A stretch of DNA of 60,828 nt, taken from Trichocoleus desertorum ATA4-8-CV12 (GTDB taxonomy: Bacteria > Cyanobacteriota > Cyanobacteriia > FACHB-46). The position numbers and the translations under genes were made by a program. Location of the stretch: assembly GCA_019358975.1 (NCBI GenBank), contig JAHHIL010000029.1:1-60828 (forward strand), given 5' to 3'. Shown in pieces: positions 6,899-26,600 of the stretch. The first letter of the stretch is position 1; every line of letters starts with the position of its first letter. The notes beneath the pieces are model-generated. The model was not told where the DNA came from, made no database searches, and saw only the letters and a list, made by a program, of their open reading frames with translations.

Positions 6899-8188
<1,290 letters not shown>

Positions 8189-8277
8189 TTAGAATATTGA
8201 ACTCACTGACTTAAACTAGACTAACCGCATTTGCTGATGATCTAACACCTGAAATGGGGTCTGATTCGCTGCATAGA

Positions 8278-9849
8278 CTACAGGGGTTTCTCTTCAACCT
8301 GAGTTAAGTTTTCTGCCAGCAGAGGAGCTAGTTTGCTATTCAGGCGACCTGCTCGCACAAATTCTGCATAGGTGTCAGCTTCGATCGCCGTGAGTTCTTC
8401 CCATAGAAGCTCATGGCTAAAATCGCGTAGGTCAGGATACTCATTGTGGAGTTGGTCAATCTCACTCTGCAAATCGCTGAGCTGACCTTTGACCAATGCA
8501 GTTTGGTAGCGATAAAATTCGGGGTCAATTTCGGGGCGATCGCTTTGCGTCAAGTGTTTTTTGACTCGATTGATCGCCACCCAACGAGCGATCGTCTCTA
8601 CATATTTTTGCTGGATGGGTTGATCGCTGAGGAGCCCTAGCCGCTCTAGCAAAGGTTTGACCGTGAGTCCTTGAACTAAGAGAGTGAATAGAACCGCCCC
8701 AAAAACAGTAGCAATCACTTCTTCTCGCTCTCCCAGCATCGTGGGCACACTCAAGGCTAAGGCAATAGAGACTGACCCCCGCAACCCGCCCCACCACAAC
8801 ACCGTCTGATCCGGTAAGGAAATGAGAGATTTAGCGACCCCATTACTCAGGGCACCTAAAGCATAGATAGCGATCGCGCGGGAGAGCAGCATGGCTCCAA
8901 TGGTGATGGCGATCGTGCCTAAGTTAGCGCCCAGCACCGAAAAATGAATTTGATCACCAATCAATAAAAAGACAATCGAGTTGACGAAAAAGGCCAAGAA
9001 GTCCCAAAACTCAGTGACTACCAACCGAGTTCGAGGACTCATGCCAATGCGAGAACCAAGGTTGCCCAAAATAATGCCAGCCGTGACCACACCGATCACA
9101 CCAGAGCCACCCAAATCTTCGGTAATTAAGTAGGTACCGTAGGCTGAAACGAGGGTCAGAGATTGCTCCACCAAGGGTAAATCAAACCGCTGGGTCAGAT
9201 AGGAAAGGCCAAAGCCAATCAGACAGCCCACGCCAATCCCGATCCCAACCACCCCAATTAAACTAGCGAGCAGATCTGAGATATCCCAGTTGCTAGTGCC
9301 GAGGGGCAGGCCCACCAGAAACCCAAAGGCAACCACAGCCATACCATCGTTAAATAGACTTTCGCCTTCCATCAAGGTGGTCAACCGTTTACCTGCGCCT
9401 AACTCTCGAAATAAAGCAATCACAGACACCGGATCGGTGGCGGATAAGCTAGCCCCGACTAGCAGGGCTGTGGTCAAGGAGACCCCTCCTAAGTAGATCA
9501 ACCCCCAAGCGACCCCGGCGATCGAAATGACCACCCCTAGCACTGCAAATAAGCTAATCGGGATCAAGTCTTGCTTGAGATTAGACCACTTGATATTCCA
9601 AGCTGCCTCGAATAACAGCGGTGGTAAAAAGATAGACAGAATCAGCTCTGGCGAGAGATTCACTAAGCGAATATCAATAAACGCCAGCCCTAGCCCCACA
9701 ATCACCAACAGTAGTGTGTAGGGAATTTGGCGAAACCAGCTAATGATCCGGGGTAGGGTGGCCACACTTAAGGAAACAGAGAGCACCAGGAGGAACTGCT
9801 TGAGATTTTGCTCAATGGCTACTCCCTCTGTTACTGCTTCTACAGCCAT
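8278..9849 (-). CDS. Na+/H+ antiporter, CPA1 (NhaP-like) family
   Basis: Monovalent cation/proton antiporter of 523 residues in the plasma membrane. About 12 hydrophobic segments span residues 15-405. The transport-core motif SATDPVSVIALF (about 137-148) and ESLFNDGMAVVAF (about 164-176) hold the paired Asp residues of electroneutral CPA1 exchangers. A charged cytoplasmic tail of about 110 residues, probably helical (EIDQLHNEYPDLRDFSHELLWEE), follows and is the usual regulatory part. Role: sodium extrusion and pH homeostasis. Start at ATG 9849; the next gene upstream begins 280 bases away on the other strand. Confidence 0.9.
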   Translation of the reverse strand: MAVEAVTEGVAIEQNLKQFLLVLSVSLSVATLPRIISWFRQIPYTLLLVIVGLGLAFIDIRLVNLSPELILSIFLPPLLFEAAWNIKWSNLKQDLIPISLFAVLGVVISIAGVAWGLIYLGGVSLTTALLVGASLSATDPVSVIALFRELGAGKRLTTLMEGESLFNDGMAVVAFGFLVGLPLGTSNWDISDLLASLIGVVGIGIGVGCLIGFGLSYLTQRFDLPLVEQSLTLVSAYGTYLITEDLGGSGVIGVVTAGIILGNLGSRIGMSPRTRLVVTEFWDFLAFFVNSIVFLLIGDQIHFSVLGANLGTIAITIGAMLLSRAIAIYALGALSNGVAKSLISLPDQTVLWWGGLRGSVSIALALSVPTMLGEREEVIATVFGAVLFTLLVQGLTVKPLLERLGLLSDQPIQQKYVETIARWVAINRVKKHLTQSDRPEIDPEFYRYQTALVKGQLSDLQSEIDQLHNEYPDLRDFSHELLWEELTAIEADTYAEFVRAGRLNSKLAPLLAENLTQVEEKPL

Positions 9850-10078
9850 AGTTCTGAAGTAATGAACAACAAATCACAATCGTGACTTGCTGCCATAGTG
9901 ACATACTCACCCCTAATGCTATCTAGATGCTATTGGATTGAACCCAGACGCTATCAGTACATAAATACTATAATCATATAGAAGTACAACGGCTCAATTC
10001 AATCTTAAAAAACGGTTGATTTTTCAGCGTTTCAGGGTGGTTATTACCCTAAAATACGACCTCCATAGGCACCCTATA

Positions 10079-10130
10079 TGTAGTGACTATAAACTACAAT
10101 AGATCTAGTGAGATTCAAGTTCTAAATATG
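10079..10130 (+). promoter_or_regulatory. shared leader motif, copy 1
   Basis: Contains a small hairpin (TGTAGT 10079-10084 with ACTACA 10093-10098), then TACAAT (a -10-like hexamer), then GATTCAAGTTCT at 10112-10123, four bases before the ATG at 10128. The same parts occur in the same order before the next gene (10547-10596). There is no Shine-Dalgarno sequence at this start; the motif occupies its place. Confidence 0.5.
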
Positions 10131-10511
10131 CAGATCGGTCGCTTTTTTTCGTTACAGCAAGGTCGCGTCGGTCAATATTTATCGCCGCGAGTTTTGGTCG
10201 TGCGTAGCCCGTTCCAGAAGCTACCAAAATCGGGTGGGCCCACTGCCGCTTGCTACTTTGGTTTTGACAAATTGAGTAAGGCTCAAGCTTTCGCTAAGTA
10301 CCTTTCAGGCTTGGGTTATAACTATCAGCTCCGACGAGGGAAAATGCTGCTTCAGTACGCCTATGAGATCGCTCTACCGCAGCATACTGACCTAGCAAAG
10401 GTGTTGGCTTATTGGGATCGGATGGATGGTAAGCGGCCCAATTTGAGCGTTGATCGAGCTAATATTCGCGATCGCGCCTTGCAAGTGGTGCCTCCTGGAT
10501 TAGCGGCTTAA
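10128..10511 (+). CDS. unknown small basic protein
   Basis: I do not recognise this 127-residue protein. It is basic, soluble and lacks membrane spans. Notable stretches are VVRSPFQKLPKSGGPTAACY and DKLSKAQAFAKYLSGLGYNY, the latter resembling a small alpha/beta fold with a helix. The open frame extends 15 codons upstream to 10083, but that part would translate the shared leader motif, so the ATG at 10128 is preferred. It is the first gene of the small accessory island at 10-13.8 kb. The next gene uses a nearly identical leader, which suggests common regulation. Confidence 0.6.
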   Translation: MQIGRFFSLQQGRVGQYLSPRVLVVRSPFQKLPKSGGPTAACYFGFDKLSKAQAFAKYLSGLGYNYQLRRGKMLLQYAYEIALPQHTDLAKVLAYWDRMDGKRPNLSVDRANIRDRALQVVPPGLAA

Positions 10512-10546
10512 GCGTGGCGTAGCGGGCTTGTTTTCTCTTGAAAGTG

Positions 10547-10596
10547 TTGTGGTAATGCACTACAATAAGGATAGTGATTCAAGTTCTTGCGCCATG
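10547..10596 (+). promoter_or_regulatory. shared leader motif, copy 2
   Basis: Hairpin TTGTGGT (10547-10553) with ACTACAA (10559-10565; one G-T pair), overlapping a TACAAT -10-like box, then AGTGATTCAAGTTCT at 10573-10587, and the ATG at 10594. It is the closest relative of copy 1: both read CTACAATA, four variable bases, then TAGTGA followed by TTCAAGTTCT. Confidence 0.5.
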
Positions 10597-10872
10597 ACTA
10601 AGCACTACATTCTCAGCGTGGACCCAACCGCCAAATATGACTGGGACCGTTGCACCCTCCGCGACCCCATCACCGCCAATCGCCCTGACCTAGCCGAGCT
10701 GATTGCTGAGGCAGTAGGGAAAGCGGCTGGCTCCTATTTGGTAGCGGTCAATATTGAAGTTCAAGTGTTAGAACAAACCGCACCGAATGCTCAAACGAAG
10801 CGTCTGCTTCCGAGTGATCTGGACGCAGCCGTGCGATCGCAGCGAGTGCAGTTAGAAGAATTAGCTGCGTAA
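10594..10872 (+). CDS. unknown small acidic protein
   Basis: A 92-residue protein that I cannot assign. The sequence begins MTKHYILSVDPTAKYDWDRC and ends in a predicted amphipathic helix (SDLDAAVRSQRVQLEELAA). It has no membrane span and no catalytic motif. An in-frame opening reaches back to 10528 through the leader motif, so the ATG at 10594 is chosen. The TnpB element's left end begins within about 20 bases of the stop. Confidence 0.6.
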   Translation: MTKHYILSVDPTAKYDWDRCTLRDPITANRPDLAELIAEAVGKAAGSYLVAVNIEVQVLEQTAPNAQTKRLLPSDLDAAVRSQRVQLEELAA

Positions 10873-10893
10873 TTTAGCTACTAGCGGGGAAGC

Positions 10894-10924
10894 CCCGCGC
10901 TGTACCTGAAAGGTCAGCGTCGGG
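10894..10924 (+). repeat. left-end bulged hairpin of TnpB element
   Basis: CCCGCGCTG (10894-10902) pairs with CAGCGTCGGG (10915-10924), leaving one bulged T on the 3' side. An upper ACCT/AGGT stem is set off by a bulged T and capped by a GAA loop. The right end (12245-12277) repeats this architecture. Confidence 0.7.
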
Positions 10925-11051
10925 ATGAGAAGCGCGTGACTGAGGGTGCGCTGCCTGACCGATTCCGCAGGACAGGGAAGGTAACAGCGCCCGAAGAAAC
11001 ACACTATTTATAGTGCTTATCAGAAATTCAAAAATACGCTAAAATAAGGAC

Positions 11052-12263
11052 GTGCTAAAAGCAACCAAGGTACGAATTTATCCGACTGATGGGCAGGTCA
11101 TTCAGTTGTCCAAAGATTTTGGCGCAACTCGATGGCTCTGGAATCAGTCGCTTTCCTTAATGTCCGCGACCTACAAGGAAACGGGTAAAGGCGTATCTGC
11201 TTACGACATGAAGAAGCGGATACCAGAGCTAAAGAAGGAGTTCGAATGGCTCAAGGAGACTTACTCACAGTGCCTCCAGCAGTCGATCCTGAATCTGTCT
11301 CAAGCGTTTATCAACTTCTTTGAAGGGCGGGCAAAATACCCCACATTCAAAAGCAAGTTTGATAGACAGTCGCTTCAATATCCTGCCAACGTAAAACTTC
11401 ACGGCGATGATGCGATTAAGTTCCCTGGAAATCTAGGCACCGTAAAAGCTAAAATCCATCGCATTTTACCTACAGGCAAGATTAAGACCGTTACGGTATC
11501 TAAGACCCCTGAAGGACACTACTTCGCCTCTTTGTTGATCGATGACGGTACGGCTAAGCCTGAAATCAGCAGCGACGGTAAAGCTGTTGGGATTGACTTG
11601 GGATTGATTGATTTTGCCGTTACTTCCGATGGCTCAAAGTTCTACAATCCCAGGCACCTCAAGAAACATGCCAAGAACTTAAAGCGCAAGCAGCAAAAGC
11701 TATCCAGAAAAACCAAGGGCAGCAAGACTCGCATAAAAGCGCGTCGCCTGGTCGCTAAAGTTCACGGCAAAATTGCCAGAGTCAGAGAAGATTTTCTCCA
11801 CAAACTATCTCGCAAGCTAGTCAACGAAAACCAAGTTGTAGTGGTGGAAAATCTGGCAGTCAAGAACATGGTAAAAAATCATACTCTTGCCAAAGCCATC
11901 AGCGATGCGGGCTGGGGTAAGTTTTGCACCATGCTCAAGTACAAAGCCGAGTTTGACGGCAAAACCTATCTTGAAGTAGACAGATTTTTCCCGTCGTCTC
12001 ATTTGTGTTCAAACACGCTGCTACAAATCCCCAAAATGGATCTCTCTGTCCGCTTCTTTGATTGCCCGCACTGCCAGCAACGGCATGAGCGGGATGTAAA
12101 TGCGGCAATCAATATCAGAAATGAAGGCTTGCGATTACTGGCGTTGGGAATCAGCGCTACTGCCAATCGAGGGAGTGTAAATCCGAAGGGTTCTGGACGT
12201 AAAAAATCCATGAATTCGGAGGTAGCTCCCGTTGAAGTTGGAAGCCCGCGCTCTATCGTTTAG
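11052..12263 (+). CDS. tnpB: RNA-guided TnpB nuclease, IS200/IS605 family
   Basis: TnpB proteins are RNA-guided DNA nucleases, ancestors of Cas12, that use a guide RNA made from the element's right end. This 403-residue protein has the N-terminal helix-turn-helix/OB part (RIYPTDGQVIQLSKDFGATRWLWN) and a split RuvC domain with Asp182 (IDLGLIDFAV), Glu266 (VVVENLAVKNM) and Asp348 (ERDVNAAINI), so catalysis looks intact. The zinc-ribbon is odd: C-terminal Cys338/Cys341 are present, but the N-terminal pair reads Cys319-Ser-Asn-Thr322 rather than CxxC. The start codon is GTG. The stop lies inside the right-end hairpin. Confidence 0.92.
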   Translation: MLKATKVRIYPTDGQVIQLSKDFGATRWLWNQSLSLMSATYKETGKGVSAYDMKKRIPELKKEFEWLKETYSQCLQQSILNLSQAFINFFEGRAKYPTFKSKFDRQSLQYPANVKLHGDDAIKFPGNLGTVKAKIHRILPTGKIKTVTVSKTPEGHYFASLLIDDGTAKPEISSDGKAVGIDLGLIDFAVTSDGSKFYNPRHLKKHAKNLKRKQQKLSRKTKGSKTRIKARRLVAKVHGKIARVREDFLHKLSRKLVNENQVVVVENLAVKNMVKNHTLAKAISDAGWGKFCTMLKYKAEFDGKTYLEVDRFFPSSHLCSNTLLQIPKMDLSVRFFDCPHCQQRHERDVNAAINIRNEGLRLLALGISATANRGSVNPKGSGRKKSMNSEVAPVEVGSPRSIV

Positions 12264-12277
12264 CGATGAGCGTCGGG
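12245..12277 (+). ncRNA. right-end hairpin, probable 3' end of the TnpB guide (omega) RNA
   Basis: CCCGCGCT (12245-12252) pairs with AGCGTCGGG (12269-12277) with a bulged T, and an upper stem ATCG/CGAT has a TTTAG loop. In this family the guide RNA overlaps the 3' end of tnpB and ends at the right boundary, with guide sequence taken from flanking DNA. Here the variable part would begin just after 12280. The RNA itself is inferred, not shown. Confidence 0.5.
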
Positions 12278-12354
12278 TAATTCACGCTGATGCCTATTGC
12301 TCTCCGGGCTGGGTTGCTATTCTCCTCAGCCTCCGATTGATTCCTGACACTCAC

Positions 12355-12388
12355 ATTCAAGTTCTCAGTTTGCTTAGGAAAGATATCT
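12355..12388 (+). promoter_or_regulatory. shared leader motif, copy 3
   Basis: ATTCAAGTTCT at 12355-12365, 23 bases before the ATG at 12389. The TnpB element's right end lies about 75 bases upstream. A purine-rich AGGAAAGA lies between motif and start. Confidence 0.4.
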
Positions 12389-12763
12389 ATGAAATTCAGT
12401 ATTAGTCAGTATCCCGCCGCGATCGCTCAAGCTGCTCAAGCGGTGAATGAGCTAGAACACCAAATTGGGGAAGCCCGCCAGCATATTGCTCGCTTAGAAG
12501 GCAATGCTGACTTGGTCGTGGCGTTTGAAACCAACTTGAAGAATGACAACCAACGCAAGGCGCGCCGCTTCGAAGTGCTGCAAGCAAATCCTGAATATCA
12601 GCATGCGATGGATGCCCTGCTGCGCCTGAGTACCGAGAAATCCAATGCCTTGGCTCATCTAGAGCACTTGCGCAATGAGTTTAGCGTCGCCAAGTTAGAA
12701 GCGCGTCTAGCGATCGCTCAGCAGCTGACTGGCCTAGAGACCCGCGAGTTTGTTGGGCTGTAG
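12389..12763 (+). CDS. unknown coiled-coil protein
   Basis: A 124-residue protein made almost wholly of predicted helix with heptad-like spacing (NELEHQIGEARQHIARLEGN; ALAHLEHLRNEFSVAKLEARL). It has no enzymatic motif or membrane span. I do not recognise a family; the composition resembles small structural or phage-type coiled-coil proteins, but this is only resemblance. It is preceded by the shared ATTCAAGTTCT motif and followed by its own strong terminator, so it is probably a monocistronic unit. Confidence 0.6.
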   Translation: MKFSISQYPAAIAQAAQAVNELEHQIGEARQHIARLEGNADLVVAFETNLKNDNQRKARRFEVLQANPEYQHAMDALLRLSTEKSNALAHLEHLRNEFSVAKLEARLAIAQQLTGLETREFVGL

Positions 12764-12818
12764 TCACCTAAGCGTTAAGCTTCTCTCCTCTCGAAGCAAT
12801 TTTTGAGAGGAATGTAGT

Positions 12819-12848
12819 AGCAGTAGGACCCTTGTCCTGCTGCTTTTT
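12819..12848 (+). terminator. intrinsic terminator
   Basis: AGCAGTAGGAC (12819-12829) pairs with GTCCTGCTGCT (12834-12844) around a 4-base loop, followed by TTTTTT. It ends the transcript of the coiled-coil gene. Confidence 0.85.
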
Positions 12849-12908
12849 TCTTAAATGTTGAACTGTTATTTCTAATTTGATTACTTATAGAAACAAACAG
12901 CAATAAAA

Positions 12909-12955
12909 AAGTGGCCCCCGCCGCGAGGTGAAGGTCACTTAGTGATTCAAGTTCT
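12909..12955 (+). promoter_or_regulatory. hairpin plus shared leader motif, copy 4
   Basis: AAGTGGCC (12909-12916) pairs with GGTCACTT (12933-12940; one G-T pair). Immediately after comes AGTGATTCAAGTTCT (12941-12955), identical over 15 bases to copy 2. The ATG follows 30 bases later behind a strong Shine-Dalgarno sequence (GAGGGAGG, 12975-12982). Confidence 0.5.
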
Positions 12956-12985
12956 TAATTTAAGCCTAGTAGATGAGGGAGGTTT

Positions 12986-13390
12986 ATGCAAGAAAATGTG
13001 GTGGAATTAATCCGAGAGCTGATGAAAACTCAGCAGATGAGCATTCGCAAAATCTCGGCACGAATCGCTAAAGAGCATGGAGGCAGCGCTTTGGGCTATA
13101 CTCAGCAAATTAATCGAATCCTGAATGATTCGGACTACGATCCCAACTTTTCTACCGTTCAAAAAGTGCTTGCTGCTCTCAATTGTTCTTTCTGGCAATT
13201 GACAACCGCTCAGAGAAATTTTGACTTCAAAGCGATAGAAGGACGCTTAGATCGCTTTGATACGGAAATTACAGACCTAAAGTTGGCAGTTGACCAACTT
13301 CGTGGATCAGTTGAAGAATTGGTGCAAGAATTACGGCCTATTCAGCCAGAAGTAAAGCGACCATCAGCTTCTATTCGTTCGTCTAGTTAA
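12986..13390 (+). CDS. XRE-like helix-turn-helix regulator with coiled-coil tail
   Basis: A 134-residue protein. Residues about 1-75 resemble a Cro/C1-type DNA-binding domain (MSIRKISARIAKEHGG, QINRILNDSDYDPNFSTVQKVLAALNCSFWQL). Residues 80-120 form a predicted coiled coil (EGRLDRFDTEITDLKLAVDQLRGSVEELVQEL), likely for oligomerisation. It is the only recognisable regulator in the island and carries the shared leader motif itself, so it is a candidate for binding that motif, which is inference. The following gene starts 7 bases after its stop and is probably co-transcribed. Confidence 0.7.
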   Translation: MQENVVELIRELMKTQQMSIRKISARIAKEHGGSALGYTQQINRILNDSDYDPNFSTVQKVLAALNCSFWQLTTAQRNFDFKAIEGRLDRFDTEITDLKLAVDQLRGSVEELVQELRPIQPEVKRPSASIRSSS

Positions 13391-13397
13391 TTTGATT

Positions 13398-13775
13398 ATG
13401 AATACAATTCTCACGCCGACAGAAATTTCTGATTTTCGCGCCGAACTGAGCGATTATCCCCAGGCTTTAGTCGCTTTAGATGTAGTTGAAGACTGTGAGG
13501 GCGATTTAGAAGATGCCGCGATCGCCCTAGCAATTCATGTCGGGCAGCAACCCACCACATCTGAGGGCTGGATCGCAGGATTGGCGAAGCGCTGGCGACC
13601 TAGGCTGTGCCAAGCTGAATTGCGAGCTGATTTAGAAACTAACCGTGTGGCAACTACCATCACACAGCTAGTCACGACAAATGCTCTACCTTGGGAACTG
13701 GCTACCCTCGTGAGTATCTACGCCGCTAAAGCTGGAATCGATGATTTCTGCAAGCCGCTAGAAGAAAAGCTCTAG
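13398..13775 (+). CDS. conserved cyanobacterial protein of unknown function
   Basis: A 125-residue acidic, helical, soluble protein, with segments such as FRAELSDYPQALVALDVVEDCEGDLEDAAIALAI and WIAGLAKRWRPRLC. I have an impression of this as a conserved cyanobacterial hypothetical but cannot name a domain. The ATG at 13398 is chosen over an in-frame TTG two codons earlier. It sits 7 bases behind the helix-turn-helix gene, so the two form a likely operon. It ends 5 bases before the convergent panB stop. Confidence 0.65.
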   Translation: MNTILTPTEISDFRAELSDYPQALVALDVVEDCEGDLEDAAIALAIHVGQQPTTSEGWIAGLAKRWRPRLCQAELRADLETNRVATTITQLVTTNALPWELATLVSIYAAKAGIDDFCKPLEEKL

Positions 13776-25973: not shown

Positions 25974-26600
25974 ATGATTGGTTATCTCCAAGGCACCGTT
26001 GCCAGCATTCAAAAAAATCCCAGCAATCGGGTCACACTCACCTTAGATGTCAACCAAGTGGGCTACGACATCCAAGTGGTTCCCCGTTTAATTCAACAGC
26101 TGCCTGATTTAGGCGAGCCTATTCAAGTTTTCACGCATTTACAGGTGCGAGAAGACCAAATGATTTTGTTTGGCTTTGGCACCGCCGCTGAGCGGGATTT
26201 ATTTCGGCAATTGGTCAGCGTCAGTGGGATTGGCCCCCAACTAGCTGTGGCCTTGCTGGATAAAATGGGGCTGCAAGATTTGGTACAGGCGATCGTCTCT
26301 GGCAACACGAAAGCCTTAGCCCGTACCCCTGGTGTGGGCAACAAGACAGCGGAACGGATTGCCTTAGAACTAAAAACCAAGCTAGCCGAGTGGCGACAAC
26401 ATGCAGGCTTGTCCAGCTTGCCCTCGGCTGGTCCTACTGCCGAAATTCAAGAAGATGTGGAGATGACGCTGCTGGCTTTAGGCTATACCAACGACGAGAT
26501 TACGCAAGCGCTCCAAGCGGTGGGGCAAAATAGCAGCTTGGCGAAAAACGCTGAACCAGACACCTGGATTCGAGAAGCGATCGCCTGGTTGAGCCAATAG
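25974..26600 (+). CDS. ruvA: Holliday junction DNA helicase subunit RuvA
   Basis: Tetrameric junction-binding subunit of the RuvAB branch-migration complex. It has 208 residues: an OB-fold N-terminal domain (about 1-63), two helix-hairpin-helix motifs (VSGIGPQLAVALLD and TPGVGNKTAERIALELK) and the C-terminal RuvB-binding helices (DVEMTLLALGYTNDEI). It follows spp at an 11-base interval. Confidence 0.97.
   Translation: MIGYLQGTVASIQKNPSNRVTLTLDVNQVGYDIQVVPRLIQQLPDLGEPIQVFTHLQVREDQMILFGFGTAAERDLFRQLVSVSGIGPQLAVALLDKMGLQDLVQAIVSGNTKALARTPGVGNKTAERIALELKTKLAEWRQHAGLSSLPSAGPTAEIQEDVEMTLLALGYTNDEITQALQAVGQNSSLAKNAEPDTWIREAIAWLSQ

Follow-up and report, generated by a model that had tools for sequence, protein, structure and literature searches.

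A putative trans-acting antisense small RNA encoded upstream of an HTH gene in Trichocoleus desertorum and its predicted target leaders

A split gene cluster with four copies of one leader motif

The window analysed here is a 60,828-nt stretch of DNA from Trichocoleus desertorum ATA4-8-CV12. It contains a cluster of genes interrupted by a transposon gene:

10128..10511, + strand: gene 1, 127 aa, a conserved cyanobacterial protein on the evidence of its orthologues
10594..10872, + strand: gene 2, 92 aa (MTKHYIL..), the main predicted target, present in 73 of 388 genomes
11052..12263, + strand: TnpB-type transposon gene between genes 2 and 3 (OrfB_IS605, Cas12f1-like_TNB)
12389..12763, + strand: gene 3, 124 aa, probably a coiled coil
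12986..13390, + strand: gene 4, a 134-aa helix-turn-helix (HTH) protein with a coiled-coil-like tail, identified from homologues

Gene 1 has no match in Pfam, PHROG, NCBIfam or PADLOC, and the AlphaFold model of gene 2 (pLDDT 61) was too poor to assign a fold. Gene 4 gives weak matches to HTH_3 and HTH_26, both below the gathering scores. The transposon gene belongs to a TnpB-only IS605-type insertion (about 10878-12276) that, among three congeners, is found in this species only. Its absence from the other two indicates that it is recent and has split the cluster. We rejected a phage or plasmid origin for the cluster, because gene 2 has no phage homologue and the HTH gene no plasmid homologue, and also a defence system, as the only PADLOC match was a weak one, between gene 3 and JetC.

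The 11-mer ATTCAAGTTCT occurs in four exact copies, all on the + strand (10113-10123, 10577-10587, 12355-12365 and 12945-12955). The copies lie within 2.9 kb and stand 4, 6, 23 and 30 nt before the ATGs of genes 1 to 4, respectively. A scan of the whole window found no fifth exact copy, and allowing one mismatch adds a single site, at 26121. Copies 2 and 4 are extended by the 15-mer AGTGATTCAAGTTCT, which is exact at 10573 and 12941. The preliminary description of this DNA had reported a motif at four positions, 4-30 bases before an ATG and nowhere else in the window, with 15 bases identical between copies 2 and 4, and exact searching bears out both statements. In the 6.06-Mb assembly the 11-mer is found 13 times, against four occurrences of a reversed control pattern, and six of the 13 directly precede a start codon in the sense orientation. 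The counts in the window and in the assembly thus establish that the motif is real and non-random. The checks proposed in the preliminary description gave the same picture, in that the genome-wide distribution of the motif is not random and the motif is conserved upstream of gene-2 orthologues in three families.

The copies could nevertheless be functionless, reflecting either chance or the shared descent of duplicated leaders, and genes 1 and 2 are indeed alike in their promoter regions in this genus. However, a mean of 0.03 copies is expected in the window and none of 100 dinucleotide shuffles reached four, and the motif has been kept in three families while its flanks have diverged. We regard this explanation as extremely improbable.

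Copy 4 belongs to a putative small RNA gene

Read on the minus strand, copy 4 becomes a 5' seed, AGAACUUGAAUCACU, directly followed by a hairpin and a U-run (AAGAACTTGAATCACTAAGTGACCTTCACCTCGCGGCGGGGGCCACTTTTTT). The features on this strand and their complement are:

12905..12957, - strand: putative small RNA (sRNA), from a covariance model, folding and pair counts, with a 5' seed AAGAACTTGAATCACT from 12956 down to 12941, a terminator stem at about 12940-12909 and a U-run to 12905
12941..12955, + strand: copy 4, the complement of the sRNA seed, from sequence
12963..12991, - strand: predicted sRNA promoter, with -35 TTGCAT (12991-12986), a 17-nt spacer and -10 TAGGCT (12968-12963)

The best reading is a putative sRNA of about 52-57 nt, ending in an intrinsic (Rho-independent) terminator, that is encoded on the minus strand in the interval from gene 3 to the HTH gene. 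The preliminary suggestion of a common leader RNA comes close for copies 1-3, which lie in the leaders of genes 1-3, but not for copy 4, which is best read as the gene of an antisense RNA pairing with them.

Orthologous loci of other cyanobacteria have the same order of elements, namely AGAACTTGAATC, a few bases, a stem and a U-run, and always point away from the HTH gene. We built a covariance model from 13 orthologous-locus sequences and searched 388 genomes of the class. Strong matches were obtained in 19 genomes, with the window locus scoring 72.6 bits (E 7.8e-14); matches below about 35 bits (L144-L148 and L247-L251), most of which resemble other terminators, were not counted as members. 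The carriers fall into three families, comprising that of the window, Leptolyngbyaceae and one other (f1, f16 and f21 in our data-set labels). No Rfam family, Yfr1 and Yfr2 included, reaches its gathering score at the sRNA locus, and we found no description of the sRNA in the literature.

The terminator stem is conserved as a structure. In a plain alignment of 13 distinct sequences 89% of the cells are paired, against 34-60% when the alignment is slid, and two-sided changes are present at four of 12 pairs, giving a covariation score that none of 500 shuffles reached. In folds of the individual sequences the seed remains single-stranded. The terminator stem of the G173 type has only a modest fold (z -0.8). 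Across the carriers the seed is near-invariant and the promoter spacing constant.

The -10 box of the predicted promoter lies 7 nt from the seed AGAACTTG, and the -35 box TTGCAT overlaps the HTH gene start, ATGCAA, of which it is the reverse complement. The arrangement TTGCAT, 17-18 nt, TANNNT, 6-9 nt, seed is present in 17 of the 19 genomes, and an eighteenth, G108, has TTGCCG-18-TAGCCT. Because TTGCAT is the complement of a start codon region, its conservation alone could stem from the protein. G108 provides a counterweight, as its HTH gene is gone and yet the replacement promoter occupies the same positions. In the remaining carrier, G098, the -10 box has been lost and the seed is mutated, as would be expected of a decaying gene. 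Promoter spacing in 18 of 19 genomes, together with the covarying hairpin and U-run, thus predicts an RNA with its own promoter and terminator. That these elements are attached to one copy of the motif only is expected of an RNA gene and not of an operator.

The gene-2 leader is the conserved predicted target

The predicted partner of the seed that recurs across genomes is the leader of gene 2, where two features adjoin:

10538..10566, + strand: gene-2 promoter TTGAAA-17-TACAAT, from a promoter scan (10 of 12 matches; a consensus match only)
10573..10587, + strand: target site AGTGATTCAAGTTCT in the gene-2 leader, 6 nt before the ATG, from duplex energy and co-occurrence

From the predicted promoter, transcription of gene 2 would begin at about 10573, where the 15-mer starts, and its leader would consist almost wholly of target site. 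Copies 1 and 2 both lie at or just past the predicted transcript starts of genes 1 and 2, over the ribosome-binding region.

The duplex between the sRNA and the gene-2 site in the window has a predicted energy of -24.5 kcal/mol, compared with a shuffled mean of -5.2. Across genomes the seed complement lies 6-8 nt upstream of the gene-2 ATG, and in 16 of 17 genomes the sRNA and the gene-2 leader of the same genome form predicted duplexes of -16 to -25 kcal/mol (shuffled leader means -3.5 to -7), with G098 as the single exception. The conserved seed, unpaired in the folds, is thus complementary to the predicted target leader. The site is present in all 18 sRNA genomes with a visible gene-2 start, the copy in G200 having one extra base, and in three of 54 gene-2 loci without the sRNA (G152, G193 and G321), although these counts are phylogenetically non-independent because most of the variation lies on one branch. 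Several more Leptolyngbyaceae have a partial, shorter AAGTTCTTG in the gene-2 leader. Sites or AAGTTCTTG stretches without an sRNA may be leftovers after sRNA loss, or may reflect an older or other role of the stretch.

Several changes in the seed or target preserve the pairing. An A to G change opposite U gives a G.U wobble in two genera, a U-A pair is exchanged for C-G between seed and target in G076, and a one-base insertion in G022 is matched in both partners. Such co-change would equally fit a DNA-binding protein that recognises both sites, which gives weight to any evidence that separates RNA from protein. The motif might also be a leader element or a site for another protein or RNA-binding factor, with the minus-strand terminator being incidental. 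The occurrence of the gene-2 motif without the sRNA in three genomes, and of the partial motif in others, would fit such a factor. However, the constant spacing between seed and terminator and the accompanying promoter over 19 genomes would then be a coincidence, and we consider this reading very improbable.

The motif and the HTH gene come apart

The motif could instead be a DNA operator through which the gene-4 HTH protein controls its own gene and represses genes 1-3. The gene for this protein is a direct neighbour with one copy of the motif upstream of it, the motif is common to genes 1, 2 and 4, and the preliminary description had put this protein forward as a candidate binder. Several observations disfavour such a role. 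ATTCAAGTTCT contains no inverted repeat, and so does not have the two-fold symmetry of an XRE/HTH operator, and its orientation relative to the gene it precedes is fixed. G108, which is 99% complete, retains the sRNA and the gene-2 site, and no HTH homologue was found in it. An HTH homologue is present in six genomes (G020, G053, G155, G276, G183 and G294) that lack both the sRNA and the gene-2 site; that of G294 is inferred from the near-identical relative L081, as the gene lies beyond the stretch read. G321 is an exception in having the HTH gene and the site without the sRNA. Thus, given G108 and the lack of the site in most HTH-bearing genomes without the sRNA, the site follows the sRNA and not the HTH protein. 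An operator would also leave the covarying minus-strand terminator unexplained. On the basis of G108 and the HTH-bearing genomes without the motif we rejected the operator reading, which we judge improbable.

Copy 4 also lies in the 5' region of the HTH gene, where the sRNA would be antisense to an HTH transcript starting upstream. It could be argued that the minus-strand RNA is real but acts in cis only, its resemblance to the other leaders being incidental; in favour of this are the overlap of the RNA gene with the HTH 5' region and that of its promoter with the HTH ATG. However, G108 retains the RNA without any HTH gene, and the RNA and the gene-2 site co-occur. In Myxacorys californica (G035) genes 1-3 are on one contig and the sRNA, the HTH gene and gene 5 on another, with unrelated neighbours. 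The gene-2 site is kept there despite the separate loci, which argues for action in trans. A purely cis-acting RNA is thus hardly probable.

In M. californica a gene judged from its translation to resemble single-strand-binding proteins follows gene 3 (L181:474-944), a hint of a link to DNA repair.

Further predicted targets within the genus

Two other leaders in the window carry sites that could pair with the sRNA:

10113..10123, + strand: predicted site in the leader of gene 1, 4 nt upstream of its ATG and conserved also in G001 and G002; this genus only
12355..12365, + strand: predicted site in the leader of gene 3, 23 nt upstream of its ATG and conserved also in G001 and G002; this genus only

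The predicted duplexes have energies of -19.2 kcal/mol (gene 1) and about -13 to -14 kcal/mol (gene 3). The gene-1 and gene-3 leaders of other families do not fit the sRNA, and gene 2 is the one gene whose leader recurs reproducibly as a conserved target in the other genomes that carry the sRNA. A sensor-gene site common to G118 and G214 was rejected as an extra target since it is probably coding.

Two of the six 11-mers found at start codons are on contig 17, one before a 330-aa coiled-coil-like gene and one before a small gene, and both sites are conserved. A Rad52-like gene (Pfam) has a near-perfect site, GATTCAAGTTCC, upstream in all three congeners. More than one target beyond the opposite strand is therefore predicted, comprising genes 1-3 and the contig-17 genes, with the separate loci in G035.

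The genes on contig 17 have some further features. The small gene (L009:9208-9570) has a nonsense codon right after its ATG in this species (G000) and is intact in the congener G002; its leader motif is present in both. The leader of the 330-aa gene (L115 and L124) has an insertion of about 70 bp, flanked by a GATTCA duplication, in G001 and G002 that is absent from G000, and the 12-mer target site is intact despite the insertion. L009:5485-6477 and 8056-9120 are two paralogous genes in tandem that are related to gp268 of Bacillus phage G, the first with 23.5% identity over the full length.

Proposed mode of action and relation to known small RNAs

The sequences support the repeats, the seed-terminator unit, the covarying terminator, the promoter spacing, the complementary leaders, and a co-occurrence of RNA and site that is independent of the HTH gene. 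We think it probable that copy 4 encodes a new family of trans-acting antisense sRNA that pairs with the gene-2 leader and, in this genus, with other leaders. Such an RNA would be transcribed from its own promoter overlapping the HTH start codon, and would consist of a single-stranded 5' seed, AGAACUUGAAUC(ACU), with the Rho-independent terminator directly 3' of it. We infer that in the cell it would pair over 11-17 nt with the very start of the gene-2 mRNA, immediately upstream of the ATG, and repress by blocking ribosome entry. The most likely outcome would be a block to ribosome loading, and hence to translation initiation, or destabilisation of the message. In this genus the seed would also fit the leaders of genes 1 and 3, the 330-aa coiled-coil-like gene, the small gene and the Rad52-like gene, so that a small set of genes would be under the control of the sRNA in trans. 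A more elaborate scenario, which we consider unlikely, is that a lineage-specific sRNA arose with its promoter over the start codon of the adjacent regulator gene, and that its seed was later recruited by the leaders of recombination-like genes (Rad52-like) and phage-related ones (relatives of phage G gp268), bringing a small set of genes with a mobile or DNA-repair role under post-transcriptional control.

To our knowledge, few cyanobacterial trans-acting sRNAs are known, nearly all of them from model strains. We file the present RNA with this already known kind, the trans-acting antisense sRNAs, as a putative new family. Its seed, terminator and promoter and a conserved target are all recognisable in the sequence, which makes a hidden RNA and its targets directly testable, and the natural gains and losses, together with the genome that has lost the regulator, are ready-made controls. 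It also offers a first handle on the widespread, uncharacterised gene-2 protein. More generally, the case illustrates how an unannotated antisense RNA may be given away by leader motifs that recur within a window.

Yfr1 is a conserved cyanobacterial trans-acting sRNA, 65 nt long in Synechococcus elongatus, whose gene lies between guaB and trxA (PMC6202907). The RNA proposed here is likewise a very short cyanobacterial RNA encoded away from its targets, with base-pairing regulation proposed, but it has no Rfam match, another seed and other neighbours, and a far narrower distribution. PsrR1 and IsaR1 are also trans-encoded cyanobacterial sRNAs (PMC6202907), and resemble it in being conserved base-pairing RNAs with several mRNAs as predicted targets. 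They control photosynthesis or iron-related targets, whereas here the main predicted target is a small uncharacterised gene, accompanied by recombination-like genes. Dependence on Hfq or another chaperone is not universal in cyanobacteria (PMC6202907). Like cis-antisense RNAs at the 5' ends of genes, the present RNA runs antisense to the stretch that precedes the HTH gene; unlike them, it is kept where the HTH gene has been lost and is predicted to pair with other transcripts.

A conserved palindrome and LexA-like boxes

The -10 boxes of genes 1 and 2 are covered by a palindrome, TGTNGTG-N6-MACTACA (M = C or A):

10079..10098, + strand: palindrome TGTAGTG-N6-AACTACA, over the gene-1 -10 box
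10545..10564, + strand: palindrome TGTTGTG-N6-CACTACA, over the gene-2 -10 box

The preliminary description had noted that copies 1 and 2 share CTACAATA. The shared sequence is real, but it is one half of the palindrome and thus a feature separate from the 11-mer. The palindrome is conserved also in relatives without the sRNA. It is a likely operator, the candidate site of a dimeric regulator, and a better operator candidate than the 11-mer.

The cyanobacterial LexA box is RGTACNNNDGTWCB. The 11-mer, with its AGT...GTTCT, is superficially similar, but it has neither the AGTAC half nor the LexA spacing, and we rejected it as a LexA/SOS box because the pattern is not matched; positions 9800-13500 of the window contain no match to the box. 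LexA-box-like sequences are found upstream of gene 1 or gene 2 in some relatives (L066:4743, L065:4406, L075:4034, L080:966 and L076:3466), hinting at SOS regulation of the cluster in some lineages.
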